From: Acidisarcina polymorpha
GTDB lineage: Bacteria > Acidobacteriota > Terriglobia > Terriglobales > Acidobacteriaceae
Reading direction: 5' to 3'
Assembly (NCBI RefSeq): GCF_003330725.1
Contig: NZ_CP030840.1
Coordinates: forward strand, 3,844,001 to 3,908,000
Length of the DNA: 64,000 bases
Below the pieces are notes generated by a model that was not told the origin of the DNA, ran no database searches, and saw only the letters and a list, made by a program, of their open reading frames with translations. Shown one piece after another: positions 33,661 to 55,332 of this stretch. Every line of letters begins with the position of its first letter. The stretch's first letter is position 1. The position numbers and the translations under genes were made by a program.

Positions 33661-33668
33661 TGGATCTC

Positions 33669-33679
33669 CGCTCCGCATA
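33669..33679 (-). promoter_or_regulatory. Shared leader element TATGCGGAGCG (copy 1)
   Basis: The 11 bases read TATGCGGAGCG on the minus strand, ending 9 bases before ATG 33660. The inner GGAG is a Shine-Dalgarno sequence. The same 11 bases occur before both paralogs. Confidence 0.55.
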
Positions 33680-33750
33680 CATAAAGGTGGTCGCATCACT
33701 TGCATGTGACTTCAAGGCCATTGCCCAGATGTTGGACATATTTAAGAATG

Positions 33751-36900: not shown

Positions 36901-37419
36901 ATACATCGTGTTTGTGGATAGATCGATAACCGGCGTCCCGCAGATTCCATAGACCGGCGTATAGGTGCCGGCCGGAGTAGTGTTGGTCAGCAACGATACC
37001 TGCCACAATGGAACCGAGTTGGCTCCCCCGTTACTGTCCGCGTCAAACGCATAGACGCTGTCGTGAGTTGTTCCCACATAGACGACGTTGTGAACACCTT
37101 TGCCGGGAATGGTGAGATGGGAGACGTACAGGGGCTGAGGGTAGACGCCTCCGTCGACAGGCCATGAAAACAGCTTGCCAAACTGGCTGGAGTTTACAGT
37201 GGAGGGAGTAAGGATCGTTTCGTTCAGATTTTGCCCAGTGCGGCCAATATCGTTGTGGCCGGTCAAGACATTCACCTGCGCAGCGGCGGGATAGCCAAGC
37301 GAGAACAGGGCAACGAGCAGCATGCCAGTGAGAGGCTGCCGGAGATGCCGGGACTTCATGCTGAAGGTGGTTCGCTGGACACGGCACAAAAGGGCAAGGG
37401 TCTGCTGCAAAATGCTCAT
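33931..37419 (-). CDS. Exported propeller / chitobiase-like / L-type-lectin-like protein, paralog 2
   Basis: An 1162-residue paralog of its neighbour with the same domain order: signal peptide (GMLLVALFSLGYPAAAQ, about 33-49), propeller opening TGHNDIGRTGQNLNETILTP, two chitobiase-like domains (YYTTDGSTPS, FYTVDGSTPT), then two lectin-like domains (VDFDLFSNAGEGPNSTGLYI-type calcium/sugar loop; second copy FDTYNNAGEGNDSTGVYI). ATG 37419 follows the shared leader element. Tandem with paralog 1 in the same direction but separated by a hairpin and its own leader, so probably separate transcripts. Confidence 0.87.
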   Translation of the reverse strand: MSILQQTLALLCRVQRTTFSMKSRHLRQPLTGMLLVALFSLGYPAAAQVNVLTGHNDIGRTGQNLNETILTPSTVNSSQFGKLFSWPVDGGVYPQPLYVSHLTIPGKGVHNVVYVGTTHDSVYAFDADSNGGANSVPLWQVSLLTNTTPAGTYTPVYGICGTPVIDLSTNTMYLVSSEEKVSNSTYPFRIHALDITTGAEKFGGPLQVQGGVPGTGSGSVNGWLAFDGVYERQRPSLLLLNGVVYAAFGSVNDTGPWHGWIFSYNAANLSPIDVYSTAPNGSGAGIWMGGSGLAAEVNDPSKPYGRMFFAVGNGSNSAAAPPYNNSMSYGMSVVDLDLTGGVMNVTDQFTQSDWARRNGQDGDLGSAGPVLLPTQTLASGKTVSTLVQIGKVGTFYVLDRNHLGGYNANSNQIVQELQTPESGEQQWGAGIWGSSAYWNQNIYYGGHNPGAANPLIAYSFRNGQMSAGPTSQSHETFAYPGPTPSVSSNGGQNGIVWVIDNSQYHVGPGVLYAYDATNLGNTLYSSNDNLSRDNPGGAVEFTVPTVANGKVYVGQAFQFSVYGLLNSPTAAAPIFNPPGGTFNGSEMVSLTSATPNAQIYYTTDGSTPSTESHLYTGPINVNSDETITAIANANHYLQSAAVSATYTDSTVTGNPIFSLTAGTYSGTQYLNLVDTTANATIFYTVDGSTPTTSSQHYTAGFPLIISVTETVRAMAISPHLPPSQVVSTTYTINPPYVIDFSQGFADSQAPMQFNGSTSLDDFRLQLTNGGTNQAGSAFYETPVNIQSFTTDFTLQLSNPVADGMTFTIQNVGAGALGGDGGGLGYNSIGKSLAIKFDLFSNAGEGPNSTGLYINGAEPTLPSISLVGTGINLHDGDYQLVHITYDGTNLVLTITDGTTLASWSHTFTNINIPAIVGGPTAYVGFTGGSGGFSSSQKVTYWTYLPGAPLVPNNPAGFDARSLALNGVAALAGTALHITNGGPNESGSAFFPTAVNLTSFTSDFDFVLTHGSSSTIGDGFTFVMQNDSVKAIQGSGGLLGYGGMPASVAIKFDTYNNAGEGNDSTGVYIDGATPTLPAINLTPHRVVLSSGDSLHAHIAYDGTTLTWTITDNTLPSKPSATNSQVINIPHILGGNVGYVGFTGGSGGATSIQSILDWTFASATN

Positions 37420-37426
37420 AGGTCTT

Positions 37427-37437
37427 CGCTCCGCATA
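37427..37437 (-). promoter_or_regulatory. Shared leader element TATGCGGAGCG (copy 2)
   Basis: Identical 11 bases on the minus strand, ending 7 bases before ATG 37419; GGAG inside serves as ribosome-binding site. Confidence 0.55.
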
Positions 37438-38974
37438 AAAGGACATCGAAAATCAGACAACAGGTCGAACGATTGCTTGCGCCGCCAAGTCGCCGAACTC
37501 CGAGCCTACACATGCACGGAAATGATCGGCAAAAAAGACGGTTTAGTGAGATGGAGTGGCTGATAGAGCCAGCCGCCGCATGCGTAAAGCCAGGCACATG
37601 CGGACACTTTGTTGCATTTTGAAGCTAAACCTGATGCTGCGCCAGGAATCTATTCATGAGGCTTCGGTAAACTTCAGCTAGACATCCGGTGGGAAACAGA
37701 AAGCTCTACAAGTTAAGACAAAATACACTCTTTCGAAAAGCCGAAGAATGCTCGATTACCGACTACCTAATGTCAAATTTGCTACTGAGAGTATGAGTTC
37801 TGTAGATCGTTTCGATACGAGCAAGATACCACAAATCCAATAAAATGAAAGATATTTTATAGCGATTCTAGGTAAATTTTGCGCTTTGCGGCGCGCCGGA
37901 AAACAGTCACGCCAAGGCTATCGAAATCTCCTCCGTTTCCAGTGGATTGGTGGCGTTGCGGCACATCGCCAATGCCGGAACATTGAGTCTGACTCGGCGT
38001 AGCGCCTGGTAGGTCTTGCGGTCTCATCCCTGGGCGATTCGGGTTCGTCCTTCGTGGATTGATCTGTCTGTTATTGGAACACCGGTTAGTAATCTCCCCC
38101 TTCGACTTCGGCTTTCGCCGCCCGGCCGGATCTGCCCAGCCGGAGGAGAAGATGCAGCAAGGTCCAACCGCGAGAGATGTCAAGAGAAATGGATGTCGAT
38201 GCGGAGCGCATCTCTCGAATGGCTCGAACCCAGAGACTCTCTCGCCACGTTGATTCCACAGAAAAAAGGAAGAAGCCAACATCAAGGAGCCGGACGCGAG
38301 GCTGGCCTTTTCTCTGAATGTGCAGCTCTCGGATCATCCGTAGGCAACGCGCCGGCGGTCTTCCATTTAGGGCGCACAGCGATTTCCAGATGATCAAGTA
38401 ACCATCGTAACTGGAATGCTGAGGAGAAGGCCGAAATATCAATATGGTCTAGCTAATCTCGACGTCAGCGCTCTTGATCTTAGATGCCTTCATGTTTATA
38501 AGAATTTAATCAAAGATAGGGGGGAAGATATTCCAGTTAGATTTCACCGGGATTTCCAATTAAGGAATCCATCCTTAAACTCAGCCCCGGAGACAGTCAT
38601 CTTTAGCGATAAAGTCTCGATTTAATAGAGTTATTTGCGTCGTCATTTGAGGTCAAAACATTACCTTTGTCATTAACACTCAATAATCAAGATCACAAAA
38701 GTGACGCTGTGTAACTTCTAACTGTTGAAGAAACTCCGGTCTCAATGTAGGCTCATCTCAACATACATTTTGAACGAAGCTGTGCAAACAACTTATCCGT
38801 TTTTTGACGGATTTGAGCGGGATCATTTCTGTGGTCCGCGCTCTTGCTATTACCGTGTCTAGGGACACTGCCCGGGTTAACGCTGAACAATTCACTGCCG
38901 AATAGGCGAGAGAAGCCTTTGCTTCTTCGTGCGCGGAGTCGTGCGCAGAAGTGGGGCGTAATCAGGGGTGTCCG
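37438..38974. other. Long non-coding region between divergent exported-protein genes
   Basis: About 1.5 kb without a convincing gene. The outer parts (37,620-37,860 and 38,400-38,760) are AT-rich and probably hold the divergent promoters. The middle (about 37,860-38,400) is GC-richer and has overlapping open frames on both strands (for example 37857-38285 minus), none with a ribosome site or recognisable domain; it may be remnant DNA of a lost gene. A small stem AGAAGC-CTTT-GCTTCT and a repeated GTGCGC lie close to the DUF1800 gene. Confidence 0.5.
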
Positions 38975-41900
38975 ATGATAGACCGCAAGAGTTCGCGCCA
39001 GAAGTTTCTTACCGTTCGTACTCTTCTCATCCTGTTGATGATTCATTGTGGCGCTCCTGTCCGTTGTTTATGGGCGAGCGTCTCCTCGACTCCAGCCGCG
39101 ACCCGCCAGACGATTCGACTTGTGGCCGATGACGTGGACGGAACCAATACGGGAACTGGCCGGCTGGGAGTGGCAATCACTCTCTCGGCGATCGTCACCG
39201 GCACAGCTCATCAGGTTGTGGCTTGGCGAGTTGAGGGGGGCGGAAGTCTCGCCGCTTCAGGATCCGATGCCGAGCATGCGATCTACACGCCGCCGCTCAC
39301 GATGCCGACTGGTCAGACTGTTACGATCACTGCTTATTTGAAAACGCTGCCCTCCGTAACCACGTCGTATACGATCACTCTTCTGAATCCTGTCCCGAGC
39401 ATTGCGGCCTCACGCGGTGTGACGCCGACTACACTCCTGGTCGGCGGGACACAGAAGGTCTTTCTTGCGGGCTCCGGCTTCGTCCCCGGGATGACAGCGC
39501 TGGCGGGCGGCACGGTTCTTCCGGTCACCTACAAGGACTATAACGACGCCAGCGTCGAAGTGCCGGTGTCAGCAACCGCAAGTGGAACGCTTTCACTCCA
39601 GGTAGAAAATCCAAGTCCCGGCGGAGGTAGAGGGACTGCCGTTGCCGTGCCAGTGGCCACACCGGCGATCACGTTGACGGCGCGCGACGGCGACGGGACA
39701 AATACCGGCACAGCGGATTTGACTGAAAATGTGGATATGGCTGCGGCGGTTAGCGGCTCGCTTTCCACGGCGGTTACATGGGCGGTTACGGGGAGCGGGT
39801 CGATCTCGACGGCAGGCATCTATATGCCGCCCAGCCTCATGCCCACCGATCGCGTCGTCACCATTCGGGCATCGCTCGCCGTCAATCCGGCGATCACTGC
39901 CACGTATACGTTGAGCCTGGTCAACCCGGCTCCAACGATCAGCGCCTCATTGCCCGCCCAGACTCCAGCCGGCACTACGACGACACTGAATTTGACCGGC
40001 ACCGGATTTGTCCCTGGAACAACGGTGGCGACCAGCCAGGGCACGGTAACGGCAACCTATCAATCCCCGACGTCCATGGTGGCTCAACTTACAGTGCCAG
40101 AGACTGCTTCTGGAACGGTTCTCTTGCGGGCGCAGAATCCCGCTCCCGGCGGGGGCACGGGCGCCGCTCTTCAGGTCTCTGTTTGGATCGTTCGACTCAC
40201 CGCCACGAACTCAGATGGAGTCAACAGCGGTACCGCCCGGCTAGGGGTGCCGGTCAATCTCACTGCCACTTCAAAGTCGGGTACACACAAAGTCATCGCG
40301 TGGGTGTTGCACGGGCCGGGTACTCTGACCCCGAGCGGCTCTGACGCAAATTACGCGGTCTACGTCCCGCCAGTGATCATGCCGGCGAATGCAAACGTAA
40401 GCATAGGCGTCTCCATGCTTTCCTATCCAAGCGTAGATGCTTCCTACTCGATGACTCTGATCAATCCTGTCCCCGGCATTTCCGCGGCGAATGGAGTTAC
40501 ACCGAGCCAACTGTTGACTGGCGGTACGCAACCGGTCGCCCTTCTGGGTACCGGATTTGTTCCCGGGATGACAGTAGCGGTGAACGGTACGACCACCGTG
40601 CCAACCGCGTTCACCGATTATAACCACGCCTCCGCGCAGATACCGGTGGCGGCCAATGCAACAGGGAGCGTGTTCATTCAGTTACAGAATCCAGGGCCGG
40701 GCGGCGGGGCTGGCGCTGGCTTTAATGTTGCCGTCGCCCAGAATACCATTGCGTTGACTGCCTCGAACGCCGTTGGGGAGAACACCGTGACCGCAGCTCT
40801 CGGCACGACTGTGACGATGACGGCTATGGTCGCCGGATCGGAACAGACGGCGGTGACCTGGAGCGTCAACGGCGCGGGCTCGATCTCGAGCGGTGGCATT
40901 TACTCCGCGCCTGCCGCCCTGCCCACCGCGACGTTGGTGACGGTCAACGCGGCATTGACCTCAAATCCTGCAATCACGGCCTCCTATCAGCTGAGCGTAA
41001 TCAATCCCACGCCGGTCATTAGCTCGATGGCCCCCTATGAGATTCCAGCAGGGGAGACGACAGCGGTAACTCTCAACGGCAGTGGCTTTGTTCCGAGCAC
41101 GGTGATCTTTGTAAACAACACCGCCGTGAATGCAACTTATCTATCCGCCACGACAATGATTGCGCAGATGGCACTTCCAGCGGGCGCTTCTGGCAATATC
41201 TCGGTCCAGGGCCAGAATCCGCTTCCTGGTGGAGGCGCTGGGCCTCAGACGCAAGAGGCGATCGTTTCGCCCATCAGCGCAACGGCAGCGGCACGGATTC
41301 TCGATCAGACGACCTTCGGGCCAACCGCTGCATTGATTGGTCACGTTCAGCAGAAAGGCGTCGCCGCGTGGCTGGAAGAGCAATTCAATACCCCAATGAC
41401 ATCGCTGGCAGATGTCCCTCTTCCAACTCCTGTTTATTGCATTGATGCTGATATCTGTGCCGAGTCGGAATGGTGGAGGGCGGTGCTCACCGGCAACGAT
41501 CAATTGCGACAGAGGGTTGCCTTCGCGCTAAGTGAACTATTCGTCGTCTCGACTAACAACGTCGAGGGGCGCGGTATCACTAACTATGCCAATATCTTCG
41601 CCAACGATGCCTTTGGCAATTGGTCCACGATCATGCGCGATGTTACCCTCTCGCCGGCGATGTCGATCTACTTGAACATGCTCAACAGTCGTAAGGCTAT
41701 AGGAACCCAAATCGCGAACGAGAATTTTGCCCGGGAGAACATGCAGTTATTCAACCTGGGACTCTATCTTCTCAATCAGGACGGAAGTCAGCAGCTGGAT
41801 GGGAGCGGAAATCCAATCCCAACCTATACAGAGGCCGAAGTTCAGGCCTTCGCAAGAATTTTTACCGGTTGGACCTTTGCGAATCCCGATGGGTCGATTC

Positions 41901-42778
41901 CCGGCGATTTGATTGGCACGGCGAACTACTATCATCCGTTGGTTCCAATCGAGCGTTGGCACGACACCTCTGCAAAGACGCTCTTGAACGGGGAGCCCGT
42001 GAACGCCGGACAGTCAGCAGAGCAGGATCTCGCGCAGGGGCTCGCTAATGTATTTGAGCACCCCAACCTACCGCCTTTCGTATGCACTCAACTGATCAAA
42101 CATCTGGTAACCAGTAATCCTAGCCCTGGCTATATCTCTCGAGTTGCGGCCGTATTCATCAACAATGGCAACAATGTTCGAGGCGATATGAAGGCGGTCT
42201 TGACGGCCATTTTGACTGACCCGGAAGCTCGGGCCGGGGACAGCGAACCTGCAGTTGATGGCGGTCATCTGCGGGAGCCCATCCTCTGGATGACAGCGGT
42301 CATGAGGGGGCTGGGAGTTGTCAGTATAGATCCCAACGACGACTACCATCGGCTGTCCGATTATTCGTTGGCTTTGAGCGAAGTGCCATACAGCGCGTCG
42401 AGCGTTTTCAACTTCTATCCTCCGAGCTACACAATTGCAGACCCACTCGTCACCAACGCTCGATTAAGCGCGCCAGAATTCGCGCTCGAAAACACAGGCA
42501 GCGTGATGGATAGGCTCACCCTGGCCGACCATCTGCTGAACAACCGAATTATCAGCTTCAACGTGGATCTGAGTGCCACAAGCCCACTGGGCCACCTGGC
42601 CTCCAACCCCGATGCGCTTATCGATCGCCTTAGTTTGATCTTTCTGCATGCCAACATAGATAGCTATTCTCACACCACTATCAAGAATGCCATCAGTTCA
42701 CTCAAGGATATGTCGCAGCGCGTAAGGATAGCCGCATTTCTGGTCATTGGTTCTTCATCGTACAAAATCTTGAACTAA
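38975..42778 (+). CDS. Exported DUF1800 protein with four Ig/TIG composite modules, copy 1
   Basis: A 1267-residue exported protein. Following a signal peptide (LTVRTLLILLMIHCGAPV), residues about 49-765 contain four modules. Each joins an Ig-like part (DGTNTGTARLG...TWxVxGxGSI...YTPPxxMPT) to a TIG/IPT-like part (LTGxGFVPGT...QNPxPGGGxG). Residues about 770-1267 are the DUF1800 domain, starting AARILDQTTFGPT, with QLRQRVAFALSELFVVS and FARENMQLFNLGLYLLNQDG. DUF1800 has no established function. ATG 38975 has AGGGGTG just upstream. It is followed by a DUF1501 gene 78 bases away, the usual partner. Confidence 0.9.
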   Translation: MIDRKSSRQKFLTVRTLLILLMIHCGAPVRCLWASVSSTPAATRQTIRLVADDVDGTNTGTGRLGVAITLSAIVTGTAHQVVAWRVEGGGSLAASGSDAEHAIYTPPLTMPTGQTVTITAYLKTLPSVTTSYTITLLNPVPSIAASRGVTPTTLLVGGTQKVFLAGSGFVPGMTALAGGTVLPVTYKDYNDASVEVPVSATASGTLSLQVENPSPGGGRGTAVAVPVATPAITLTARDGDGTNTGTADLTENVDMAAAVSGSLSTAVTWAVTGSGSISTAGIYMPPSLMPTDRVVTIRASLAVNPAITATYTLSLVNPAPTISASLPAQTPAGTTTTLNLTGTGFVPGTTVATSQGTVTATYQSPTSMVAQLTVPETASGTVLLRAQNPAPGGGTGAALQVSVWIVRLTATNSDGVNSGTARLGVPVNLTATSKSGTHKVIAWVLHGPGTLTPSGSDANYAVYVPPVIMPANANVSIGVSMLSYPSVDASYSMTLINPVPGISAANGVTPSQLLTGGTQPVALLGTGFVPGMTVAVNGTTTVPTAFTDYNHASAQIPVAANATGSVFIQLQNPGPGGGAGAGFNVAVAQNTIALTASNAVGENTVTAALGTTVTMTAMVAGSEQTAVTWSVNGAGSISSGGIYSAPAALPTATLVTVNAALTSNPAITASYQLSVINPTPVISSMAPYEIPAGETTAVTLNGSGFVPSTVIFVNNTAVNATYLSATTMIAQMALPAGASGNISVQGQNPLPGGGAGPQTQEAIVSPISATAAARILDQTTFGPTAALIGHVQQKGVAAWLEEQFNTPMTSLADVPLPTPVYCIDADICAESEWWRAVLTGNDQLRQRVAFALSELFVVSTNNVEGRGITNYANIFANDAFGNWSTIMRDVTLSPAMSIYLNMLNSRKAIGTQIANENFARENMQLFNLGLYLLNQDGSQQLDGSGNPIPTYTEAEVQAFARIFTGWTFANPDGSIPGDLIGTANYYHPLVPIERWHDTSAKTLLNGEPVNAGQSAEQDLAQGLANVFEHPNLPPFVCTQLIKHLVTSNPSPGYISRVAAVFINNGNNVRGDMKAVLTAILTDPEARAGDSEPAVDGGHLREPILWMTAVMRGLGVVSIDPNDDYHRLSDYSLALSEVPYSASSVFNFYPPSYTIADPLVTNARLSAPEFALENTGSVMDRLTLADHLLNNRIISFNVDLSATSPLGHLASNPDALIDRLSLIFLHANIDSYSHTTIKNAISSLKDMSQRVRIAAFLVIGSSSYKILN
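39119..41262 (+). repeat. A-B-A-B array of Ig+TIG modules in DUF1800 copy 1
   Basis: Equivalent Leu codons at 39119, 39674, 40196 and 40754 give module lengths of 185, 174 and 186 residues before the fourth. Modules 1 and 3 share GGTQ and GFVPGMT features with AxYxPP; modules 2 and 4 share GSIS..GIY and PAGxTT. The array is therefore a duplicated two-module unit of about 360 residues. Confidence 0.8.
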
Positions 42779-42856
42779 AGACATGAGAGTGAGTATCGCG
42801 AGCCACTCGGCTCGCACTCCGCAAAGCCAAGCTACACCCAGGAAGAGAGGAAACCC

Positions 42857-44239
42857 ATGAGTCTCAATCGTCGCACTTTCATTCGATCCGCCGCGCTGGC
42901 AGCTACCGGGCACTTCGCCGGTCTGCGTCCGTTCGGCGCCATGAACGCGCTTGCGCAAGGGGCATTTCCGGACTACAAGGCACTTGTTTGCATTTTCCTC
43001 TTTGGTGGCAACGACGCCAATAATACCGTCATTCCCCTTGGCTCGGGCGACAATGGGTACGCCAACTATGCAAGCATCCGGGGATCGCTTGCATTATCCG
43101 CCAGCTCGCTGTTGCCGCTCGGCCTCGGCGCGAATGGAGAATTTGGCCTGCATCCAAGTCTCAACAATCCTACCTATGGCGGCTTACAATCATTATTCAA
43201 CAGCGGCAAGGCGGCCATTGTCGCAAATGTCGGAACATTGGTCGCTCCAACCACTCCCGCGTCCTTTCAAAACCAATCGGTTCCGGTTCCTAACAATCTT
43301 TTTTCCCACCCTGATCAACAGCTCGAATGGCAGAATGCCGAACAGAATGGGGCATACCCTTCGGGTTGGGCAGGGCGACTGGCCGATACCTGGGGAAGCA
43401 CCTATGGAACTAATCCCCAGATACCGCTAATCACATCCCTGGCCGGGGACAGCCTGTTTTGTAATGGCAGTCTCACCTCCCCAGTCGCCGTGGCCCCTGG
43501 AAATCTCTCTGGTGCGTCTTGTTCAGAAGGCGCGGCGTGCAATGTACGCAACTCGGCAGCGCAACTACTGGCCAACTTTCAGAGCGGGTTTTCGCTGGTT
43601 CAAGCGGACATGGGCATAACCAGGAATGCATATACCTATATGAAGCACATGGCATCTGCCGTGCAGTCAGCTCCCGTAGTGAACACCCCCTTCCCGCCAG
43701 CAAACCCCCTGGCCGCCCAACTGCAACAGATTGCCCAGATTATTGCTGCGCGTTCGGCGCTCGGGGTGCAGAGGCAGATCTTCTTTGCCAGCCTGGGAAA
43801 TTTTGACACTCACGCTAACCAACTCTCAATCCAGAGTCAGCTATTATCCTTCGTCGGCCCAGCCATGGCTTCGTTCTACGCGGCTACAGAGGAGTTAGGG
43901 CTTGCAAATTCGGTGACCAGTTTCACTATGTCGGATTTTAGCCGCGCCTTCGAGCCAAATTCTAATTACGGAACCGATCATGCCTGGGGCAGCCACCACT
44001 TTGTCGTCGGAGGCGCAGTGGCGGGCGGTCAAATCTATGGCACCTTCCCGACTTTGGCTTTAGGTGGCCCGAACGACTCGGGAACCAACGGACGGTGGGT
44101 GCCGACGACTGCCTCCTTCCAATACGCGGCGCAGCTGGCCTCCTGGTTTGGCGTGACTTCCGCGCAACTTCCAATACTCTTCCCGTACCTTCAACCGAAT
44201 ATTTTCCCGCCCCCAGCTAATCTCGCGTTTATGGGCTGA
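42857..44239 (+). CDS. DUF1501 protein with Tat signal, copy 1
   Basis: A 460-residue DUF1501 protein, a family distantly related to the alkaline phosphatase/sulfatase fold but with no proven reaction. The N-terminus RRTFIRSAALAATGHFAG is a twin-arginine signal, implying export of a folded, possibly metal-containing protein. Family motifs are CIFLFGGNDANNTVIP (about 37-52), NFDTHANQLS, SDFSRAF and the late GTDHAWGSHHFVVGGAV. It pairs with the preceding DUF1800 gene. RBS AGGAAGAGAGG precedes ATG 42857. Confidence 0.9.
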   Translation: MSLNRRTFIRSAALAATGHFAGLRPFGAMNALAQGAFPDYKALVCIFLFGGNDANNTVIPLGSGDNGYANYASIRGSLALSASSLLPLGLGANGEFGLHPSLNNPTYGGLQSLFNSGKAAIVANVGTLVAPTTPASFQNQSVPVPNNLFSHPDQQLEWQNAEQNGAYPSGWAGRLADTWGSTYGTNPQIPLITSLAGDSLFCNGSLTSPVAVAPGNLSGASCSEGAACNVRNSAAQLLANFQSGFSLVQADMGITRNAYTYMKHMASAVQSAPVVNTPFPPANPLAAQLQQIAQIIAARSALGVQRQIFFASLGNFDTHANQLSIQSQLLSFVGPAMASFYAATEELGLANSVTSFTMSDFSRAFEPNSNYGTDHAWGSHHFVVGGAVAGGQIYGTFPTLALGGPNDSGTNGRWVPTTASFQYAAQLASWFGVTSAQLPILFPYLQPNIFPPPANLAFMG

Positions 44240-45003
44240 GGTGTCGTAATCAAGTAGGAGTGGCTTTGCGGTCGCAGACGCCACTCCGTTGTTCCCTGCG
44301 CATGATTGTCCACGTCACCCGATGCACCCCGCGCATTTGCCTCCTCGGCGCAGAAGATAGCAGCGCCCGCTCTGGCAGCCCTACACGTCAGCGTCTCTGA
44401 GCGCCCCTTCCAGATTTCCCTCCTGTTTAGCCTCATATATGTATGGTTTAGCAAGCCGAGTGAGCAATCCAGCTATCGCCTTAAATTGCTTATGCCAGCG
44501 AATGATGGTCTGCCCCTTAGCCAATGCTCAACAGCAGGTTGGCATGACTTTCGTAACGTAAACACGGCCTCGGGCACGAACCGAACTCCCTCTCGCTGCA
44601 TCAAATTCGCCTCCATAACAAGAGTCTTATCTCCATAAGACTAGTTAGTAACATTAGATATAAAATCCATTACCTTGGTAATTTTATTATTTATTGAAAC
44701 ACTCCTGTGAGCCGAAAATTACTTCATAGTTGACAGTAAAGAACGCTGTCGATCGCTAATAAAGATTTTATCAAGTAAGTGGCACTTTGAGTTATATAAC
44801 ATGACCGGTGTACCTCTGTCTTTGGTCCGCCGGGATTGATATAACTTGGTGTTTTTGTTGCCGACTGCTTGTTGATCCGCCTGGTGCGACGGTTAAGCCA
44901 ATTCCAAACTTGAACATTCGGTGATCCCCCGTCTCAGAGCTGTGCGTGCTGGGGTCATGGGGACCTCGTGTCCGAAAACCTAATTAAGCTGAGGGAGTAC
45001 ATC
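44240..45003. other. AT-rich gap between the two DUF1800-DUF1501 pairs
   Basis: 764 bases. The left end holds a terminator-like hairpin (44257-44287). From 44,640 the DNA is strongly AT-rich and contains the perfect dyad ATTACC-TT-GGTAAT (44669-44682) and a TTGACA hexamer near 44737. No gene is supported. It probably contains the promoter of the second pair. Confidence 0.5.
44257..44287 (+). terminator. Hairpin after DUF1501 copy 1
   Basis: GGAGTGGC (44257-44264) pairs perfectly with GCCACTCC (44280-44287), and the loop contains a second small stem TGCG-GT-CGCA. It lies 17 bases after the stop and is followed by GTTGTT, a weak T run. Confidence 0.6.
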
Positions 45004-48000
45004 GTGCAGTCAAACAAGTATACGTCCAATCTGCCCAGAATCATTGCAAGGCTGTCTTTGCTTGCAGTTGCACTTACAATGTTAGTAACAACGATGTACT
45101 CCCAGGGGCAGCAAACAATTCAGATCACCGCGACGAATCCGGATGGAACGAACACCGGAACCGCCCGGGTCGGAGTGCCGGTCAGCCTCGTGGCAACGGT
45201 ATCCGCGGGTCCATACCAAGTGGTCAATTGGAGTATTACCGGCGGCGGTAGTGTCTCCGCGACCAGTAACTCGGCTGCGACCTATACGCCGCCTCTAACT
45301 ATGCCCTCAAGCACCAGCGTCACGATTACGGCATATCTGCATTCGGCGCCATCGGTGACGCAATCTTATGCGCTGTCGCTGATCTACCCGGTACCCTCGG
45401 TCACTTCAACCGCCATTCCGCAGGCGGAGCCGGGCTACACCTATACCAACACAAATGTGAACGGAGTCGGCTTTGTTCCGGGCACCGTAGTGAGCGCCAA
45501 TGGGGCTGCGCTGACGACGACCTACAAGGATTGGAACCACGTATCGGTTACGCTTCCGACACCGGCGACTGCGAGCGGCTTCCTCACTCTCCAGGCCGCT
45601 AACCCAACTCCGGGAGGAGGATCGGGGGCAAGCTACAATCAGCCGGTTCAGCCCACATCGATCGTACTTACGGCCACGAATCCGGATGGCACGAACACCG
45701 GAACGGCCAGATTAGGCGTGAATGTCAATGTGGCTGCAGTGGTATCCGGATCGGTTTCGAAGACCGTCACCTGGAGTGTTACTGGATCCGGTTCTATTTC
45801 AGGTAGTGGGGTGTACACTCCACCGAGTTCCATGCCTACCAATGGAAACGTCACTATTACGGCGACCCTGACCTCAAATCCCGCGGTCTCAACTCCCTAT
45901 CCGCTGACGCTTGTCAATCCGGCGCCGGTAATCACGAGCATGAGCCCGCTGAATGCTCCTGCGGGTTCGACGATAGCGGTAACGCTGACCGGTCATGGGT
46001 TCGTTCCCGGAACCACGATCGTCTCGAACGTCGGTTCCATCGGAAGCACGACCTATCAATCGCCGACCTCAGTAGTCGCTCAATTGACTCTTCCTGCCTC
46101 GGCAACGGGCAATCTTTCGTTGCAGGCGCAGAACCCCGCTCCCGGCGGCGGTCTGGGAGCAGCTTTGCAGTCGGCGATCTCCACTTTGCAGATCACGGCG
46201 ACGAATGCTGCCGGCACTAATACCGGTACGGCCCAACTGGGTGTGCCCGTGAATCTGACGGCGACGGTGGCGAACTCGCAATATGCGGTCATTTCCTGGA
46301 CGCTGCAAGGCGCCGGAACGCTAGTCCGGAGTGGCAATAATGGTCAATACGCGACCTACACCGCTCCAACTACAATGCCTTCGAATACGAACGTTTCAAT
46401 CACTGCATCTTTGTCGTCGTATTCAGCGTTGGCAACCACTTACGCAATCAGTCTTGGCAATCCCATCCCTTCGGTAGCATCGGCAACTCCGACACAACTA
46501 TTGACGGGCGGAACGCAGTCGGTTGCGTTAGCTGGATCTGGATTCATGCCTGGAACCGTGGTCCTCTTCAACGGAGCCTCGCTGCCGACAACTTATACGA
46601 ATTACAACTCGGCGACAGTCCAAGTACCGGTAGCGGCGAATGCAACGGGCACGCTGAGCCTTCAAGTGCAAAATCCGAGCCCCGGTGGGGGTACCGGCAA
46701 CACGTTTACTGAATCCGTGATGCCTAACACCATTAGCCTTACGGCGACCGATGCCGACGGCACCAACACCGGCACGGCGGAGCTGAGCACCAACGTCTCA
46801 ATGGTTGCGGCTGTGAGCGGGTCCGAACAGACGGCAGTGAACTGGAGTGTGGCCGGAGCTGGCTCTATCTCGAGCAACGGGGTCTACACCGCGCCGGCGG
46901 CGCTTCCAACCAACACCGCAGTGACCATCACTGCTGCGCTGGCGTCCAACCCCGCAATTACGGCGAGCTATTCATTGAACGTTATTAATCCCATCGCGGT
47001 CATCAGCGGCTCCAGTCCGTCTCTTGCTCCTGCCGGAGAGTCGACGGCCATCACCTTCACCGGTACCGGATTCGTCCCGAGCACGGTGGTCCTGGTGAAC
47101 AATACGCCGGTGCCGACGACCTATCAGTCGGCGACATCGGTGGTTGCCGAGGTGACGGTATCGCCAAGCGACACCGGAAACCTCTCCATCACCGCCCAAA
47201 ATCCCGCGCCTGGGGGTGGCACGAGCCTCTTCTATCTGGAGTCGATCTCGGCGTCGCTCGGCGTCAGAGCAGCGGCCCGGATCCTCGATCAGACGACGTT
47301 TGGACCTACCAGCGCATTGATCTCGCATGTTCAGCAAGAGGGGATCGATGCCTGGCTATCGGAGCAGTTCAACACCCCACAGACAGTATTGGCTCCGGTT
47401 TATTCAACCCACCCTTCTTATTGCAGCGCAGCTGAATACTGCACCGAGTCAGAGTGGTACCAGGCGGTGCTAACGGGCAACGATCAACTCCGCCAGAGAG
47501 TAGCCTTCGCACTGAGCGAGCTCTATGTCATCTCGGCGTTCCCGATCACCGGAGTCGGGGTCACTCCGTACATCAACATGCTGGCGGCCGACGCCTTCAC
47601 CAACTGGCACCAGATCATGACCGACGTGACGTTGTCGCCGGCCATGGGCATTTACCTGGACATGCTGGACAGCCACTCGCCGACCGGAACTGAGATAGCC
47701 GACGAGAACTACGCGCGGGAGTTCATGCAGTTATTCAACATGGGAATCTACCTTCTGAACCAGGACGGCAGCTTGCAGCTGGATGGCAACGGAAATCCGA
47801 TCCCTGCCTACACCGAAGCCCAGGTGGAGGCGTTCGCCCGGGCCTTTACCGGCTGGACCTACGCCAATGCGGATGGTTCTACGCCATCTTCTCTGATCGG
47901 CGTGCCCAACTACTTTCATCCCATGGTGGCCGTCGAGGCCGACCATGATACGAATCCCAAAACACTCTTGAACGATACGGATCCCACGTCGTACAAAGGG

Positions 48001-48771
48001 ACGACCTTGCCGTCAGGCCAGACTGCGGAGCAAGACGTGCAGGATGCGATCACTAACGTCTTCAACCATCCCAACGTTCCTCCTTTCGTCTCCAAGCAGC
48101 TCATTCAACACCTGGTCACCAGTATGCCGAGCCCCGGCTATATCTCCCGCGTGGCCTCGGTCTTCACCAACGATGGCAATGGCGTCCGCGGGAATATGAC
48201 CGCGGTGCTGAATGCGATCTTTACCGATCCTGAAGCCAGGGCAGGAGACACGGATGCTTCCGCCGACGTAGGGAAGCTGCGCGAGCCGATTCTCTGGCTG
48301 ACGGCGGTGATGCGCGGCCTCGGCGTCACCAACACCGACCCCAACAACTATTACGATCAGTTGTCCACCTATCTGGTACCGCTTGGGGAACGGCCGTTTG
48401 CCGCGTCGAGCGTCTTCAATTTCTTCTCGCCCAGCTACGTGATTCCGGGAACGACCTTGAACGCGCCGGAGTTCGGGATCGAGAACACCGCCAGTGTCGC
48501 CACCCTGCTCACTCTGGCCGACAGGCTGATGATGAACAAGTTCGTCAGCTTCAATGTGGACCTGAGCGCCACCAGTTCTTGGGGACAGATGGCGTCCACC
48601 CCCTCGGTTCTGGTCGATGCTCTCGGCACCCTCTTCATGCATGCGGAGATGGATCCGAATATCCGCGCATCGATCATCAGCGAAGTCAGCTCGGTGACCG
48701 ATTTAGGGCAACGCGTCAGGCTGGCTGTCTACCTGGTCATCACCGCGTCGCAGTACAAGGTCTCCCACTAA
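45004..48771 (+). CDS. Exported DUF1800 protein with four Ig/TIG composite modules, copy 2
   Basis: A 1255-residue paralog of DUF1800 copy 1. GTG 45004 is preferred because GAGGGAG lies 6 bases upstream (44991-44997); GTG 44968 would add 12 residues. A signal peptide (IIARLSLLAVALTMLVTTMYS, about 11-32) is followed by four Ig+TIG modules (about 41-745) and the DUF1800 domain (from about 753; AAARILDQTTFGPTSALISH, RQRVAFALSELYVIS, REFMQLFNMGIYLLNQDG). The domain order and module count match copy 1 exactly, so this is a gene duplication. It is followed by its own DUF1501 partner 96 bases downstream. Confidence 0.9.
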   Translation: MQSNKYTSNLPRIIARLSLLAVALTMLVTTMYSQGQQTIQITATNPDGTNTGTARVGVPVSLVATVSAGPYQVVNWSITGGGSVSATSNSAATYTPPLTMPSSTSVTITAYLHSAPSVTQSYALSLIYPVPSVTSTAIPQAEPGYTYTNTNVNGVGFVPGTVVSANGAALTTTYKDWNHVSVTLPTPATASGFLTLQAANPTPGGGSGASYNQPVQPTSIVLTATNPDGTNTGTARLGVNVNVAAVVSGSVSKTVTWSVTGSGSISGSGVYTPPSSMPTNGNVTITATLTSNPAVSTPYPLTLVNPAPVITSMSPLNAPAGSTIAVTLTGHGFVPGTTIVSNVGSIGSTTYQSPTSVVAQLTLPASATGNLSLQAQNPAPGGGLGAALQSAISTLQITATNAAGTNTGTAQLGVPVNLTATVANSQYAVISWTLQGAGTLVRSGNNGQYATYTAPTTMPSNTNVSITASLSSYSALATTYAISLGNPIPSVASATPTQLLTGGTQSVALAGSGFMPGTVVLFNGASLPTTYTNYNSATVQVPVAANATGTLSLQVQNPSPGGGTGNTFTESVMPNTISLTATDADGTNTGTAELSTNVSMVAAVSGSEQTAVNWSVAGAGSISSNGVYTAPAALPTNTAVTITAALASNPAITASYSLNVINPIAVISGSSPSLAPAGESTAITFTGTGFVPSTVVLVNNTPVPTTYQSATSVVAEVTVSPSDTGNLSITAQNPAPGGGTSLFYLESISASLGVRAAARILDQTTFGPTSALISHVQQEGIDAWLSEQFNTPQTVLAPVYSTHPSYCSAAEYCTESEWYQAVLTGNDQLRQRVAFALSELYVISAFPITGVGVTPYINMLAADAFTNWHQIMTDVTLSPAMGIYLDMLDSHSPTGTEIADENYAREFMQLFNMGIYLLNQDGSLQLDGNGNPIPAYTEAQVEAFARAFTGWTYANADGSTPSSLIGVPNYFHPMVAVEADHDTNPKTLLNDTDPTSYKGTTLPSGQTAEQDVQDAITNVFNHPNVPPFVSKQLIQHLVTSMPSPGYISRVASVFTNDGNGVRGNMTAVLNAIFTDPEARAGDTDASADVGKLREPILWLTAVMRGLGVTNTDPNNYYDQLSTYLVPLGERPFAASSVFNFFSPSYVIPGTTLNAPEFGIENTASVATLLTLADRLMMNKFVSFNVDLSATSSWGQMASTPSVLVDALGTLFMHAEMDPNIRASIISEVSSVTDLGQRVRLAVYLVITASQYKVSH
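45124..47241 (+). repeat. A-B-A-B array of Ig+TIG modules in DUF1800 copy 2
   Basis: Equivalent codons at 45124, 45667, 46192 and 46738 give module lengths of 181, 175 and 182 residues before the fourth. The same alternation of types as in copy 1 is seen, so the internal duplication predates the gene duplication. Confidence 0.8.
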
Positions 48772-48867
48772 CCCGCATCAGCCAGAACCTGCGTCCTGCT
48801 GCTCGTGCCTTCCACGGCCGGGCAGCAGCAGTCCGAATTGTGCTTCATCCAGAGAGGAATTACGACC

Positions 48868-50205
48868 ATGAATCGTCGCAGCTTTATTCGCACCGCATCG
48901 TTAGCAGCCGCCGGACACGCCGCCGGCTTACGTCCCTTCGGCATGATGAACGCTTTCGCTCAAGGCTCCTCCGACTACAAGGCGCTCGTCTGCATCTTCC
49001 TGTTCGGGGGAAATGACGCCAACAATACCATCATCCCCTTCGACACCGCCGACTATGCCAGCTATGCGAAAATTCGCGGCCCCCTGGCGCTTGCCCAGAA
49101 CACGCTGCTGCCGCTGACGCCCCTGCCGAACTACGCCCTCAATCCGAATTTGCCCGACATTCAGTCGCTCTTCAATAATGGAAAGGCCGCGATCGTGGCC
49201 AACGTCGGCACCCTGGTGCAGCCGCTGACCCGCACCCAATACCTGGCCTCGCAGTCGCTTGCGCCGAGCAGCCTGTTCTCGCATCCCGACCAGCAATTGC
49301 AGTGGCAGAACTATCCTCAGTCGGGGGCGACGCCCACCGGCTGGGCCGGCCGCATCGCCGACTACATGGCCCCCATCTACAATCCGAACGGGCAAGTTCC
49401 GATGGTCACCTCCTGTGACGGGGACACCTTGTTCTGCGACGGCGCGTCCACTTCGCCGGTTGCGGTGATTCCTGGAAGCGTACAAACGGGTAAGTGCTCC
49501 GAGACCGCCTCCATGTGCACTTCCAGACAGGCCACTGCCCAGCAGATCCTTAGTTTTGAGAGCGGCGTTTCGCTCGTCCAGGCCGACAACAACATCACCG
49601 CCAATGCCTATAAATACGATGGAATTCTGGCCACCGCCCTGCAGTCGGCCACTCTCCAAACTCAATTTCCGAACGACGGAGCGCTCGGATCGCAGCTTCA
49701 ACAGATTGCGCAGATGATTAAGGTCGGACCCTCTTTGGGCATCAGCCGGCAGATCTTCTTTGCCGGTGTCGGGAACTTCGACACCCATGCCGCCCAGCTT
49801 TCGGTCCAGAGCAGCCTGCTCGCCATGATCAGCCCGGCCATCGGGGCTTTCTACGCGGCCACCCAGGAGCTGGGAGTCGCCAACCAGGTCACGACCTTCA
49901 CCATGTCGGACTTCAACCGGGCCTATCAGCCCAACGGCAACAACGGGAGCGACCACGCCTGGGGAAGCAGCCTCTTCGTGCTTGGCGGCGCCGTGAAAGG
50001 CGGAAAGGTCTATGGAACCATGCCCACTCTCGCTCTCGGCGGACCGGACGACTCCGGCAGCAACGGCCGCTGGGTCCCCACCACAGCTTCCGTACAATAC
50101 GCCGCCACCCTGGCTTCCTGGTTCGGCGTACCGGCCGCTGAGCTGGCGAGCATCTTTCCTAATATCAGCAATTTCCCCACCGCCAATCTCGGCTTCTTAG
50201 GGTAG
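48868..50205 (+). CDS. DUF1501 protein with Tat signal, copy 2
   Basis: A 445-residue paralog of DUF1501 copy 1. ATG 48868 gives the twin-arginine signal RRSFIRTASLAAAGHAAG; the GAGGA upstream (48854-48858) supports it over an in-frame GTG at 48805. Family motifs are conserved: VCIFLFGGNDANNTIIP, GNFDTHAAQLS, SDFNRAY and GSDHAWGSSLFVLGGAV. The pattern of paired Cys (CDGDTLFCDG) also matches copy 1. It ends with a terminator-like hairpin 9 bases after the stop, closing the second pair as an operon. Confidence 0.9.
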   Translation: MNRRSFIRTASLAAAGHAAGLRPFGMMNAFAQGSSDYKALVCIFLFGGNDANNTIIPFDTADYASYAKIRGPLALAQNTLLPLTPLPNYALNPNLPDIQSLFNNGKAAIVANVGTLVQPLTRTQYLASQSLAPSSLFSHPDQQLQWQNYPQSGATPTGWAGRIADYMAPIYNPNGQVPMVTSCDGDTLFCDGASTSPVAVIPGSVQTGKCSETASMCTSRQATAQQILSFESGVSLVQADNNITANAYKYDGILATALQSATLQTQFPNDGALGSQLQQIAQMIKVGPSLGISRQIFFAGVGNFDTHAAQLSVQSSLLAMISPAIGAFYAATQELGVANQVTTFTMSDFNRAYQPNGNNGSDHAWGSSLFVLGGAVKGGKVYGTMPTLALGGPDDSGSNGRWVPTTASVQYAATLASWFGVPAAELASIFPNISNFPTANLGFLG

Positions 50206-50214
50206 CCGCGAAGC

Positions 50215-50252
50215 GCGCAGGGAGATTCGAACGCCCGGATTTGTCCCTGCGC
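50215..50252 (+). terminator. Hairpin after DUF1501 copy 2
   Basis: GCGCAGGGA (50215-50223) pairs perfectly with TCCCTGCGC (50244-50252) across a 20-base loop. Its position just after the stop suggests a terminator, and it covers an upstream TTG (50241) of the next open frame, arguing against that start. Confidence 0.55.
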
Positions 50253-50339
50253 GGCAAAGGCGCCCTTTTGACTGCAACCTATTCGATTTACAGTGGCTTT
50301 GTTGAACGATTGCCAGGCATAGTCTATGTTAAGGAGTGG

Positions 50340-51857: not shown

Positions 51858-51867
51858 AGTGTGTTTT

Positions 51868-54800
51868 ATGGGAATGTATGGGTGGTTTGCCTCTGGAGTT
51901 GCGTGTTTACGAAGCTGCGTCTCTACCGCCAAGAATGTATCAATCCGGTATGCAGTTTATAACCTCCTGGCGATACTAGGATTAGTGGCCTTTGGCGCAG
52001 GTGCAGAAGCTCAGCTTGCGGTGACTACCGCGCACAACGACATTGCCCGGACGGGACAGAACCTGAGTGAGACGATCCTCACCCCCGCAAATGTGAACAC
52101 AACCCAGTTTGGCAGGCTGTTCTCGCAACCGGTCTCAGGGCTGGTTTACGCACAGCCGCTCTATGTATCGCAGGTGGCAATTCCCAACAAAGGTACTCAC
52201 AATGTCGTTTACGTGGCGACCACGCGGAACAACGTCTACGCGTTCGACGCAGATGACAACGGCGGCGTGGATGCGACTCCGTTATGGTCGAAGAACCTTA
52301 CGGCGAGTGGCTTTCAGGCTAACTTCGGAGTCGTAGGCACGCCGGTTATCGACCTTCCTTCCAGCACGATCTACATGGTCAGTTCGGAGGCCTCCACTTC
52401 GAGTTCGACAGACCAGTTTCGTCTGCACGCCCTGGATATCACGACGGGCGCAGAGAAACTTGGCGGGCCGGTCGTCATCCAGGCATCCGTTACTGGTTCG
52501 GGCAGTGGCAGCGCCGGGGGAGTTCTGGCATTCAATCCGGCTTCTCACTATCAGCGTCCGGGGCTTCTGCTGCTGAATGGCGTCCTGTACATTGCTTTCG
52601 GTTCAGTGAACGACAATGGCGCATGGCACGGCTGGATCTTGTCGTATAAGGGAGCGAACTTACAGCAAATCGATGCATTTTGTACTACGCCGAACGGCGC
52701 CTCGGGCGGCATCTGGATGGGAGGAGCTGGATTGGCGGCGGAGGTAAACAGTTCGACCAGCGCGTATGGCAGGATGTTTCTTACGACTGGGAACGGCACC
52801 TTTTCGGCGAACTCTCCTTATACAAGTGCGATGAGTTATGGGATGTCTGTCCTGAACCTCGATCTCACCGGCGGGGTGATGACCGTGAAGGACGAGTTCA
52901 CCCCTTTCAATGAGGCGAAGCTCGATGGGGAAGACGGGGACATTGGCTCAGGCGGCCTTGTGCTTCTGCCTGCTCAAACCCTCCAGTCAGGAGGCACCCT
53001 GAATCCACTTGTGCAAATGGGGAAGTCCGGGATGATCTATATACTCAATCGCAACAATCTTGGCGGCTTCAATGCTTCGGGTGATCGGGTGGTTCAGGAG
53101 GTGCAGACGCCGGAGTCCGGCTCTGAGAACTGGGGTACTGGCATCTGGGGACAGCCTGCTTTTTGGAACAACAATATCTACTTCGGAGGAGTTCAATACG
53201 CTGGTTCTTCCTCCGGGACGAATAACAGCCTAACTGCTTATTCCTTCGTCAACGGCTTGCTATCCAATACTCCAGTGAGCACCACCGCCGAGCAGTTCGC
53301 GTATCCCGGGCCGACGCCGTCGGTCTCGGCGAACGGCACATCGAACGGGATTGTCTGGGTGCTGAAGAATGACGCATACACCACTGGAGGCGATGGGGTC
53401 ATGCTTGCCTACGACGCCACCAATCTCGAAAACCTGCTGTATTCAACCAATGCAAATCTCTCTCGCGACGATCCGGGCGGCGCGGTCAAGTTTACGGTGC
53501 CGACGGTCGCTAACGGCAAGGTGTATGTGGGAGCAACGAATCTTATCGATATCTACGGTTTGCTCAGCAGCGAGCCGACTGCACCTGCGCCCAATATTAC
53601 GCCTTCCGCCCGGTTCACCGGATCGCAGAGTGTGTCGATGTCCGATTCAGTAGCCACATGCAACATCTATTACACCACCGACGGCTCGATTCCGACTGCA
53701 TCCTCTACCTTGTACACGGGAACCTTCAAGATCACCGCCAGCGAAACCATAAACGCCATCTGCAGCGCGACCGACTACCTGCAAAGCCCGGTGTCTTCGT
53801 CGACCTTCTCTTCGACCGCCAACGCTGCGAACCCGGTGTTTTCGCTTGCCGGCGGTACATACTCGGGGACACAGATGCTGACCATCACCGATAGCTCGGC
53901 CGGTGCGACCATCTACTACACCGTGAATGGGGCGACTCCGACGACTTCGTCGGCGGTTTACAAAAACCCAATCCCAATTTCGATTTCGGAGACGGTACAA
54001 GCGATGGCGATCGCCCCTGGCCTGCTTTCGAGTTCAACGATCAGCGCTTCCTACACGATCAATCCGGTCTACACGATCGACTTCAGCAATGGCTTCTCCC
54101 AGGCGCAGGGCCCGATGCAGTTCAATGGAAGCACCGATCTTGACGACTTCCGCTTGCAACTAACCAACGGGGGCCAGAATGAAACCGGCAGCGCTTTCTA
54201 TGCGATGCCAGTGAATGTGCAGGCATTTACGACAGATTTCACCTTCCAGCTCTCCAACCCTGCGGGCGACGGCATCACCTTCACCATCCAAAACTCCGGT
54301 CCAACAGCGCTGGGCTCGGCCAAGTCCGATCTCGGATACACAACGATTCAACACAGCATGTGCATCAAGTTCGACCTTGTCGATAAAGCCGGACAAGGTC
54401 CGGATGGCACGGGGCTGTTTACGAACGGCAATACTCCTAGATCAACCGAGATCGATATGACCGGAACCGGCATAGACCTGCACAGCGGCGACTATATCAG
54501 CGCCCACATGACCTATGATGGGCTGAACCTAGTGATGACCCTGACCGACGATTTTACCTTGGCCACCTGGTCTCACTCTTTTCCAATCAATATCCCGGCT
54601 GTGGTGGGCAGCAAGACGGCTTACGTTGGCTTCACCGGATCCACGGGTGGTCAAACGGCAAGCCAGAAGCTCACTTACTGGACATACTTAGCGGGACAAC
54701 CGGTGGTACCGAACTATCCTGTTGGGTTCGATGGGATCGGTCTCGCGTTAAACGGGAACTCTTCAGTTGCGGGAACGGCTTTGCATCTGACCACCAACGC

Positions 54801-55332
54801 AACGAACCAGACATCGAGTGCTTTCTTCGGAGTGCCGGTGAACGTGACGGCTTTCACGAGTGACTTCGATTTCCAATTCAGCAATGCGGTGGCGGAAGGC
54901 TTCGCATTCGTGATCCAAAACGCCAGCCCTACCGCGCTTGGAAGCGGAGGTGGAGGGTTAGGATACGCAACTATCCCAACGAGCACAGCGATCAAGTTCG
55001 ACATCTTCAGCGATGCCGGTGAAGGCACCGACTCCACCGGTGTTTACGCGAATGGCGCAATGCCGACCGTGCCTGCCGTCAACCTCACCCCAACCAACGT
55101 GGTCATTGGAAACGGTGATGTGTTTCACGTGCACGTCACCTACGATGGCAAGACCCTGACCTGGACACTTACCGACATCGGCTCAGCCTCCCATCACGAC
55201 ACTACCCAGAGCACCAGCATCAGCATCCCACAGACGATAGGAAGCAATACTGCTTACATCGGGTTCACGGGCTCGACTGGCTCTAAGACAGCAATCGAGA
55301 ATATTCTGGATTGGACCTACAGCAATCCTTAG
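51868..55332 (+). CDS. Exported propeller / chitobiase-like / L-type-lectin-like protein, paralog 3
   Basis: An 1154-residue third member of the family on the opposite strand. Signal segment NLLAILGLVAFGAGAEA (about 35-52); propeller opening TAHNDIARTGQNLSETILTP (about 56-565). Two chitobiase-like domains follow (about 571-650 and 652-733; YYTTDGSIPT, YYTVNGATPT), then two lectin-like domains (about 734-945, 948-1154; IKFDLVDKAGQGPDGTGLF, IKFDIFSDAGEGTDSTGVY). In the first lectin domain the conserved N-x-G loop of the other paralogs is changed (LVDKAGQGPDG), so its sugar or metal site may differ. ATG 51868 follows the leader element. Confidence 0.87.
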   Translation: MGMYGWFASGVACLRSCVSTAKNVSIRYAVYNLLAILGLVAFGAGAEAQLAVTTAHNDIARTGQNLSETILTPANVNTTQFGRLFSQPVSGLVYAQPLYVSQVAIPNKGTHNVVYVATTRNNVYAFDADDNGGVDATPLWSKNLTASGFQANFGVVGTPVIDLPSSTIYMVSSEASTSSSTDQFRLHALDITTGAEKLGGPVVIQASVTGSGSGSAGGVLAFNPASHYQRPGLLLLNGVLYIAFGSVNDNGAWHGWILSYKGANLQQIDAFCTTPNGASGGIWMGGAGLAAEVNSSTSAYGRMFLTTGNGTFSANSPYTSAMSYGMSVLNLDLTGGVMTVKDEFTPFNEAKLDGEDGDIGSGGLVLLPAQTLQSGGTLNPLVQMGKSGMIYILNRNNLGGFNASGDRVVQEVQTPESGSENWGTGIWGQPAFWNNNIYFGGVQYAGSSSGTNNSLTAYSFVNGLLSNTPVSTTAEQFAYPGPTPSVSANGTSNGIVWVLKNDAYTTGGDGVMLAYDATNLENLLYSTNANLSRDDPGGAVKFTVPTVANGKVYVGATNLIDIYGLLSSEPTAPAPNITPSARFTGSQSVSMSDSVATCNIYYTTDGSIPTASSTLYTGTFKITASETINAICSATDYLQSPVSSSTFSSTANAANPVFSLAGGTYSGTQMLTITDSSAGATIYYTVNGATPTTSSAVYKNPIPISISETVQAMAIAPGLLSSSTISASYTINPVYTIDFSNGFSQAQGPMQFNGSTDLDDFRLQLTNGGQNETGSAFYAMPVNVQAFTTDFTFQLSNPAGDGITFTIQNSGPTALGSAKSDLGYTTIQHSMCIKFDLVDKAGQGPDGTGLFTNGNTPRSTEIDMTGTGIDLHSGDYISAHMTYDGLNLVMTLTDDFTLATWSHSFPINIPAVVGSKTAYVGFTGSTGGQTASQKLTYWTYLAGQPVVPNYPVGFDGIGLALNGNSSVAGTALHLTTNATNQTSSAFFGVPVNVTAFTSDFDFQFSNAVAEGFAFVIQNASPTALGSGGGGLGYATIPTSTAIKFDIFSDAGEGTDSTGVYANGAMPTVPAVNLTPTNVVIGNGDVFHVHVTYDGKTLTWTLTDIGSASHHDTTQSTSISIPQTIGSNTAYIGFTGSTGSKTAIENILDWTYSNP

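Follow-up and report, generated by a model that had tools for sequence, protein, structure and literature searches.

Adjoining DUF1800-DUF1501 gene pairs of Acidisarcina polymorpha belong to a dispersed five-pair family with signs of recombination among its copies

DUF1800 and DUF1501 proteins occur as partners in several phyla and are uncharacterised. In the passages of one paper drawn on here, chitin-synthase-linked DUF1800-DUF1501 genes are described, along with a twin-arginine translocation (Tat) motif in the DUF1501 protein and two tandem pairs in Agrobacterium vitis (PMC5122149). Part of another paper places PSCyt/PSD genes of Verrucomicrobia, of unknown function, near sulfatase genes and in association with carbohydrate-binding modules (PMC5615132). 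Here we analyse two DUF1800-DUF1501 gene pairs, designated A and B, which adjoin one another on the chromosome of Acidisarcina polymorpha SBC82T in a 64,000-nucleotide stretch (NZ_CP030840.1, positions 3,844,001 to 3,908,000), hereafter the window, to which coordinates refer unless a locus is named. They belong to the already known kind of DUF1800-DUF1501 gene pairs and, as far as those passages of PMC5122149 extend, share with the pairs described there the domains, the gene order and the tandem arrangement, but differ in their long array of Ig/TIG modules, in the presence of five pairs and additional remnants in the genome, and in the mosaic make-up of several copies. No link to a chitin synthase was noticed, and no search was aimed at one. 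Among the titles and abstract openings of literature on DUF1800, DUF1501, DUF1553/DUF1549 and acidobacterial gene conversion, no description of the A/B locus was found.

The four genes of the two pairs are as follows.

38975..42778, + strand: pair A DUF1800 protein gene, with a signal-like start, four Ig+TIG (PGGG) modules and the DUF1800 domain from ~41288
42857..44239, + strand: pair A DUF1501 protein gene, with a twin-arginine start
44968..48771, + strand: pair B DUF1800 protein gene, with a signal-like start, four Ig+TIG modules and the DUF1800 domain from ~47272
48868..50205, + strand: pair B DUF1501 protein gene, which the open reading frame (ORF) tool opens at GTG 48805

The order on the + strand is DUF1800, DUF1501, DUF1800, DUF1501, all four ORFs are intact, and the start of the pair A DUF1800 gene is uncertain (GTG 38951 or ATG 38975). 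The Pfam scores lie far above the cut-offs, both for DUF1800 (PF08811; A: 266.2 bits, B: 254.6 bits; cut-off: 26.1) and for DUF1501 (PF07394; A: 121.1 bits, B: 92.2 bits; cut-off: 27). The first-pass annotation had described two complete units lying head to tail with the same domains, module count and partner order, and this is confirmed, with four PGGG modules in each.

The genome of strain SBC82T consists of a circular chromosome and four circular plasmids according to the part of its description used here (PMC6252331), with replicons of 7,112,011 (chromosome C1), 108,812, 196,405, 121,048 and 62,450 bp and a total of 7,600,726 bp. It harbors six DUF1800 and six DUF1501 places, five of which form adjacent pairs, namely A, B, D (C1 at 1.65 Mb, with two modules), E (at the end of C1) and C3 (on the ~109 kb plasmid of that name; C4 and C5 are likewise plasmids). 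One DUF1800 gene (C1, 5.84 Mb) and one DUF1501 gene (C1, 4.44 Mb) are unpaired. The account that we consider probable is that A and B are members of a lineage-expanded five-pair family, that the 3′ parts of B, E and C3 have been rewritten by gene conversion, and that each pair would encode a hydrolase and its stalk partner.

The full proteins of A and B share 57% amino acid (aa) identity over 1237 aa (DUF1800 protein) and 60% over 460 aa (DUF1501 protein), which is far beyond chance; by part, the identity is 63% in the DUF1800 domain, 54% in the N-terminal part and 62% in DUF1501. Pair D stands at a similar distance from both (DUF1800 domain and DUF1501, respectively: A-D 60% and 64%; B-D 61% and 65%). 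The first-pass annotation, which proposed a tandem duplication, had itself named as evidence against it a resemblance between A and B no greater than that to distant homologs, and this is largely what was observed. The number of synonymous substitutions per synonymous site (dS) between A and B is 2.58 for the DUF1800 gene and past saturation for the DUF1501 gene; with nonsynonymous values (dN) of 0.355 and 0.307, there is no sign of positive selection between the two. By DNA identity over 5 kb, B is nearest to E (88%) and C3 (84%), with A at ~65%. In the DUF1800 domain, E and C3 share 97% and 95% aa identity with B, while the best match outside the genome reaches 61% among 398 genomes of the family, a sample of a larger group, with at most three candidates scored per genome; other genera reach 55-61%. 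A and B are not each other's closest relatives, since the closest relatives of B are E and C3, and on these comparisons they are old relatives rather than fresh tandem duplicates. What stands of the earlier proposal is that they are paralogs of one clade, while a recent tandem duplication as a full account was rejected, as their synonymous sites are saturated and the nearest copies of B lie elsewhere. Adjoining copies need not be closest kin, the nearest relatives of B being located at a distant chromosomal site and on a plasmid.

The five pairs form one clade, both in the DUF1800 trees (support 100/98 with 37 rows; 97/99 with 15 rows) and, more weakly, in the DUF1501 trees (95/79 and 87/85). 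The 37-row trees cover pairs with a DUF1800 part of more than 400 aa, with L036, L040, L041, L042 and L044 excluded and the second pair of L026 falling outside the pairing limit, while the 15-row trees comprise 14 members of that set and L020, which has a partial DUF1800. This clade argues against an independent acquisition of A and B from other bacteria, with their adjacency being incidental, as do the PGGG modules, which were found in none of five relatives checked, and the position of 18 of the 20 CoaZ (PGGG module) places of the genome within the five pair DUF1800 proteins. Separate acquisition could be read from the DUF1501 homologs of three other genomes, which share 64, 63 and 68% identity with B, above the A-B value, but it is already disfavoured and we regard it as highly improbable.

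An old duplication in place was also considered, by which A and B would have originated as neighbours, with E, C3 and the remnants being later copies of B that reached a plasmid and a second chromosomal site, and their 3′ likeness resulting from copying and conversion. The pairs adjoin and both carry four modules where D has two, and a clade of A, B, E and C3 is not rejected by the approximately unbiased (AU) test (p 0.516 for DUF1800; 0.131 for DUF1501) and obtains 87/50 support in the 37-row DUF1800 tree. However, A joins D, albeit weakly, in the DUF1501 trees (93/61 and 82/79), A and B have unrelated upstream regions, and plain copying of B cannot yield the dS of ~1 or more that separates the 5′ halves of the copies. 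We judge this history unlikely. On the five-pair account, the family would have expanded within the acidobacterial lineage, on both chromosome and plasmid, and A may have split from the B/E/C3 group long ago.

The evidence for gene conversion comes from B, E and C3, which align almost gaplessly and in which three regions can be distinguished.

45097..46750, + strand: N-terminal module region of B, long diverged from E and C3 (dS ~1 or more in most of it), with E nearest to C3
46750..48453, + strand: transition region, with B and E mutually nearest and B-E dS falling from 0.78 to 0.04
48454..49149, + strand: 696-bp stretch without a substitution among B, E and C3, comprising the DUF1800 end, the spacer and the DUF1501 start, its exact identity being subject to the assembly caveat discussed below

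In successive blocks of 60 codons, the B-E dS is 1.37, 1.51, 0.96, 1.00, 1.35, 1.46, 1.01, 2.10, 1.63, saturated and 0.34 (blocks 1-11), and then 0.51, 0.11, 0.78, 0.14, 0.05, 0.09, 0.05, 0.04, 0, 0 and 0 (blocks 12-22). Because synonymous sites are affected, this fall to zero is not explicable by protein constraint. Positive selection on the modules was likewise rejected, with dN/dS below 0.5 in every DUF1800 block that yields a value. The nearest copy changes as well: among sites at which two copies agree against the third, those before 46750 number 357 for E=C3, 130 for B=E and 129 for B=C3, while between 46750 and 48400 they number 53, 154 and 37, respectively. The switch in the partner of E (357:130 versus 53:154; Fisher p 1e-31) is to be read with the breakpoint having been picked after looking and neighbouring sites being non-independent. 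The longest E=C3 run spans 17 sites (at most 15 in shuffles; 0/2000) and the longest B=E run 87 sites (at most 14; 0/2000). Past the 696-bp stretch, B and C3 diverge again, with a dS of 0.08-0.75 in DUF1501; the last two B-E and E-C3 blocks of DUF1501 were left unused, as their high dN stems solely from a frame break in E at the record join. Synonymous divergence and the nearest copy thus both change along one near-gapless alignment, as in gene-converted paralogs, and in these sequences the dS gradient and partner switch point to recombination between copies at separate sites, in the form of gene conversion. The portion of PMC6053082 drawn on here describes full-length bacterial paralogs that evolve in concert through gene conversion, and likeness at synonymous sites among paralogs of one genome is common to both; by comparison with that portion, homogenisation here is limited to the 3′ part and one of the copies is plasmid-borne. 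With regard to the direction and date of the conversion, we infer that the N-terminal modules of B, E and C3 would be old and that later homologous recombination would have rewritten the DUF1800 domain, the spacer and the DUF1501 start, so that each copy would keep its own Ig/TIG array fused to a nearly common enzyme end. The genome thus offers pair copies of different age for comparison.

Several observations weigh against this interpretation. Runs specific to B=C3 do not exceed the length expected by chance (161/2000 shuffles), and the comparison covers a single strain, SBC82T. Its genome was assembled, according to the consulted section of the genome report, from 454 reads (mean 549 nt, Newbler) with MinION finishing and Pilon correction (PMC6252331), and near-identical repeats may have been collapsed in such an assembly. 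Furthermore, the 1711-bp identity of E to B stops at the record end, the following 128 bp being 92% identical. An assembly artefact, in which one collapsed repeat was placed at three sites, would agree with the scaffolding of 454 and Newbler contigs by MinION (PMC6252331, in the same section) and with the end of the B-E identity at the record join, where E has two bases fewer than B and its reading frame is broken on paper. We nevertheless hold such an artefact distinctly improbable, as the dS fall and the partner switch lie where the copies are distinct (60-99% identical), and as C3 lacks 12 bp of the spacer, a deletion of its own within the 696-bp identical stretch. Assembly may have exaggerated the extent of exact identity, but it does not explain the dS gradient; the case for conversion rests on the gradient and the partner switch, since these parts have distinct copies. 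The first base of the published chromosome record falls within the DUF1501 gene of copy E (L014 end/L058 start).

A DNA search of the genome with pair B furthermore recovered additional pieces on C3, C4 and C5. The C4 piece corresponds to the 5′ part of the DUF1800 gene (78.5% identity to B, 55.9% to E and 49.9% to C3) and is immediately followed by a 3′ flank that matches the flank of C3 at 96% identity, which makes it a deletion remnant. Plasmid C3 also holds a 332-bp 3′ piece of DUF1501, and a 224-bp DUF1501 piece is located in an 8.5-kb segment common to C4 (L062) and C5 (L061), which is 99.9% identical. No sequence close to B was found in plasmid or phage records; the DUF1501 matches comprise 36 plasmid records, all below 60%, and one phage record. 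GGDEF-GAF, CRP-like (by eye) and small-protein genes recur beside the plasmid copies and remnants (L060 on C4; L016 and L059 on C3) and in part also beside copy E (L058, C1 start).

The predicted structure of the DUF1501 protein has the fold of the alkaline-phosphatase superfamily, with a best Z of 17.6 and a root-mean-square deviation of 3.4 over 247 residues, which is most of its length, and Z of at least 8 for 490 of 1000 aligned chains. The matches include ENPP, choline sulfatase and PafA, and the likeness to this superfamily extends to conserved acidic and histidine residues, but the DUF1501 sequence has no match among solved structures. The confidence of the model itself is moderate (predicted local distance difference test, pLDDT: 74.7; predicted template modelling score, pTM: 0.80) and the Foldseek TM-scores are low (0.18-0.40), both of which tell against the assignment. 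Invariant or near-invariant residues of the B protein include D50, S138, H139, D305, H307, D348 and H363, which would be metal ligands and the nucleophile, by analogy with the superfamily. The twin-arginine motif is invariant in 28/28 aligned sequences, and a loose pattern finds it in 59 of 65 ORFs. The DUF1501 protein is a putative metal-dependent hydrolase that would be exported folded via Tat, and the model provides a predicted fold and a candidate active site for this family.

Each module of the A and B DUF1800 proteins comprises an Ig-like and a TIG stretch ending in PGGG, with four N-terminal modules per protein. Four stretches per protein match the NCBIfam model CoaZ_rpt_PGGG (NF058597; 143.1 and 166.1 bits; cut-off: 30). 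Modules 2, 3 and 4 of A match best their counterparts in B (57, 54 and 61%), while module 1 is level between B1 (49%) and B3 (50%). The DUF1800 model is good (pLDDT: 86.1; pTM: 0.88) and yielded neither a Foldseek match to solved structures at E 0.001 nor a VIA match with Z of at least 5, a null result that says nothing about fold novelty. A lipobox of strict pattern occurs in 23 of 60 complete DUF1800 ORFs, namely in 22/31 of the family relatives, 1/24 of the others and none of the five Acidisarcina copies; two ORFs truncated at contig ends and duplicate sequences are excluded from the count, and the loci concerned are L018, L019, L021, L047, L048, L050-L054, L056, L057 and L084-L102, together with A, B, D, E and C3. 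The Acidisarcina proteins may be secreted free. The DUF1800 protein would be a secreted helical partner whose Ig/TIG stalk may attach the pair to a surface or polymer; with several copies, one enzyme would have several stalks. Cellulose occurs in the saccular envelope of A. polymorpha, according to the part of PMC9693552 used here; any link between it and these genes is speculation. A more far-reaching reading, which we hold doubtful, is that B, E and C3, one of them plasmid-borne and accompanied by deleted remnants on three plasmids, constitute a constant-and-variable display system in which recombination would maintain a common enzyme end and allow Ig/TIG arrays to be swapped, and that, given distant kinship of DUF1800 and PSD1/DUF1553, the DUF1501 hydrolases would make up a single system with a helical partner in common and interchangeable stalks. 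If the display reading were true, the cell could change what its surface hydrolase binds.

The possible kinship with PSD1, a domain known from Planctomycetes, is suggested in part by three PSCyt2-PSD1 (DUF1549-DUF1553) proteins, two of which are closely related to each other, from two other Acidobacteriota genomes with at least 37 PSD1 places each.

L152:1097-3250: PSCyt2-PSD1 protein with a weak DUF1800 match
L153:219-2372: PSCyt2-PSD1 protein with a weak DUF1800 match
L154:3-2864: PSCyt2-PSD1 protein with a weak DUF1800 match

The Pfam DUF1800 profile matches these proteins below the cut-off (E 1.6e-4, 3.4e-4 and 1.3e-4) and collinearly with the PSD1 domain, and the L154 gene, like the DUF1800 genes of the pairs, directly precedes a DUF1501 gene. 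The A and B DUF1800 proteins differ in having no PSD1 (PF07587) match at E of at most 1 and, by Pfam scan, no cytochrome-type N-terminus. An hhalign comparison of DUF1800 with PSD1 (105 and 20 rows, respectively, none of the L152-L154 proteins being included) scored 45.4 over 124 columns (P 1.7e-4; probability 49%), versus at most 20.0 for 40 column-shuffled decoys and 28.7 for a reversed alignment. With smaller alignments of the two families P was 0.026 and 0.037, and searches with self-built DUF1800 and PSD1 profiles gave no match in either direction. The profile similarity makes a common origin of both DUF1501 neighbours possible, and we treat as a lead that DUF1800 and PSD1 may be distantly related.

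Further features in the surroundings of the pairs are the following.

38600..38899, strand not applicable: AT-rich region upstream of A, 41.7% GC
44257..44287, + strand: hairpin 3′ of pair A, arms 44257-44264/44280-44287, fold z-score -3.04
44600..44899, strand not applicable: AT-rich region upstream of B, between the pairs, 38.7% GC
50214..50253, + strand: hairpin 3′ of pair B, arms 50214-50223/50244-50253, fold z-score -2.55

The first-pass annotation had assigned to each pair a hairpin on its downstream side and AT-rich sequence on its upstream side. Both are present, and the upstream values compare with a GC content of ~49-64% within the pair genes, but neither hairpin is followed by a T-run and the two upstream regions show no significant similarity (best E 0.35). 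Promoter-like sites are at chance level (seven found, 6.5 expected) and terminator-like sites close to it (17 found, 13.0 expected).

Among 33 loci (20 of relatives, 12 further ones and the window, with at least one locus, L083/L018, counted twice), DUF1800 is present in 32 and DUF1501 in 31, compared with 0/20 controls. No further conserved neighbour was found in these loci, the next family reaching 8/33 versus 5/20 in controls. Downstream of the pairs, at 55558-63268, lies an exopolysaccharide locus with genes for a glycosyltransferase, a Wzz-like chain-length protein, rmlB, rmlA, rmlC and rmlD, and L021 resembles the window in its exopolysaccharide-gene surroundings. A general linkage was rejected on comparing 20 relative loci from 18 genomes, a set outside which the window and L021 stand, with 20 shifted controls (glycosyltransferase 1 versus 1; Wzz 1 versus 0; rmlA 0 versus 1; rmlB 0 versus 1). 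Pairs A and B are flanked by three large paralogs (30202-33705, - strand; 33931-37446, - strand; 51859-55332, + strand), each with two legume-lectin and two CHB_HEX_C domains and sharing 63-65% DNA identity. DUF7948/SBBP/Big_3_5/CHB_HEX_C proteins are encoded near A and B (25156-28272) and near the C3 copy (L016:112-3369). The Burkholderiales contigs L025 and L026 likewise carry DUF1800-DUF1501 pairs in tandem, one short and one long.

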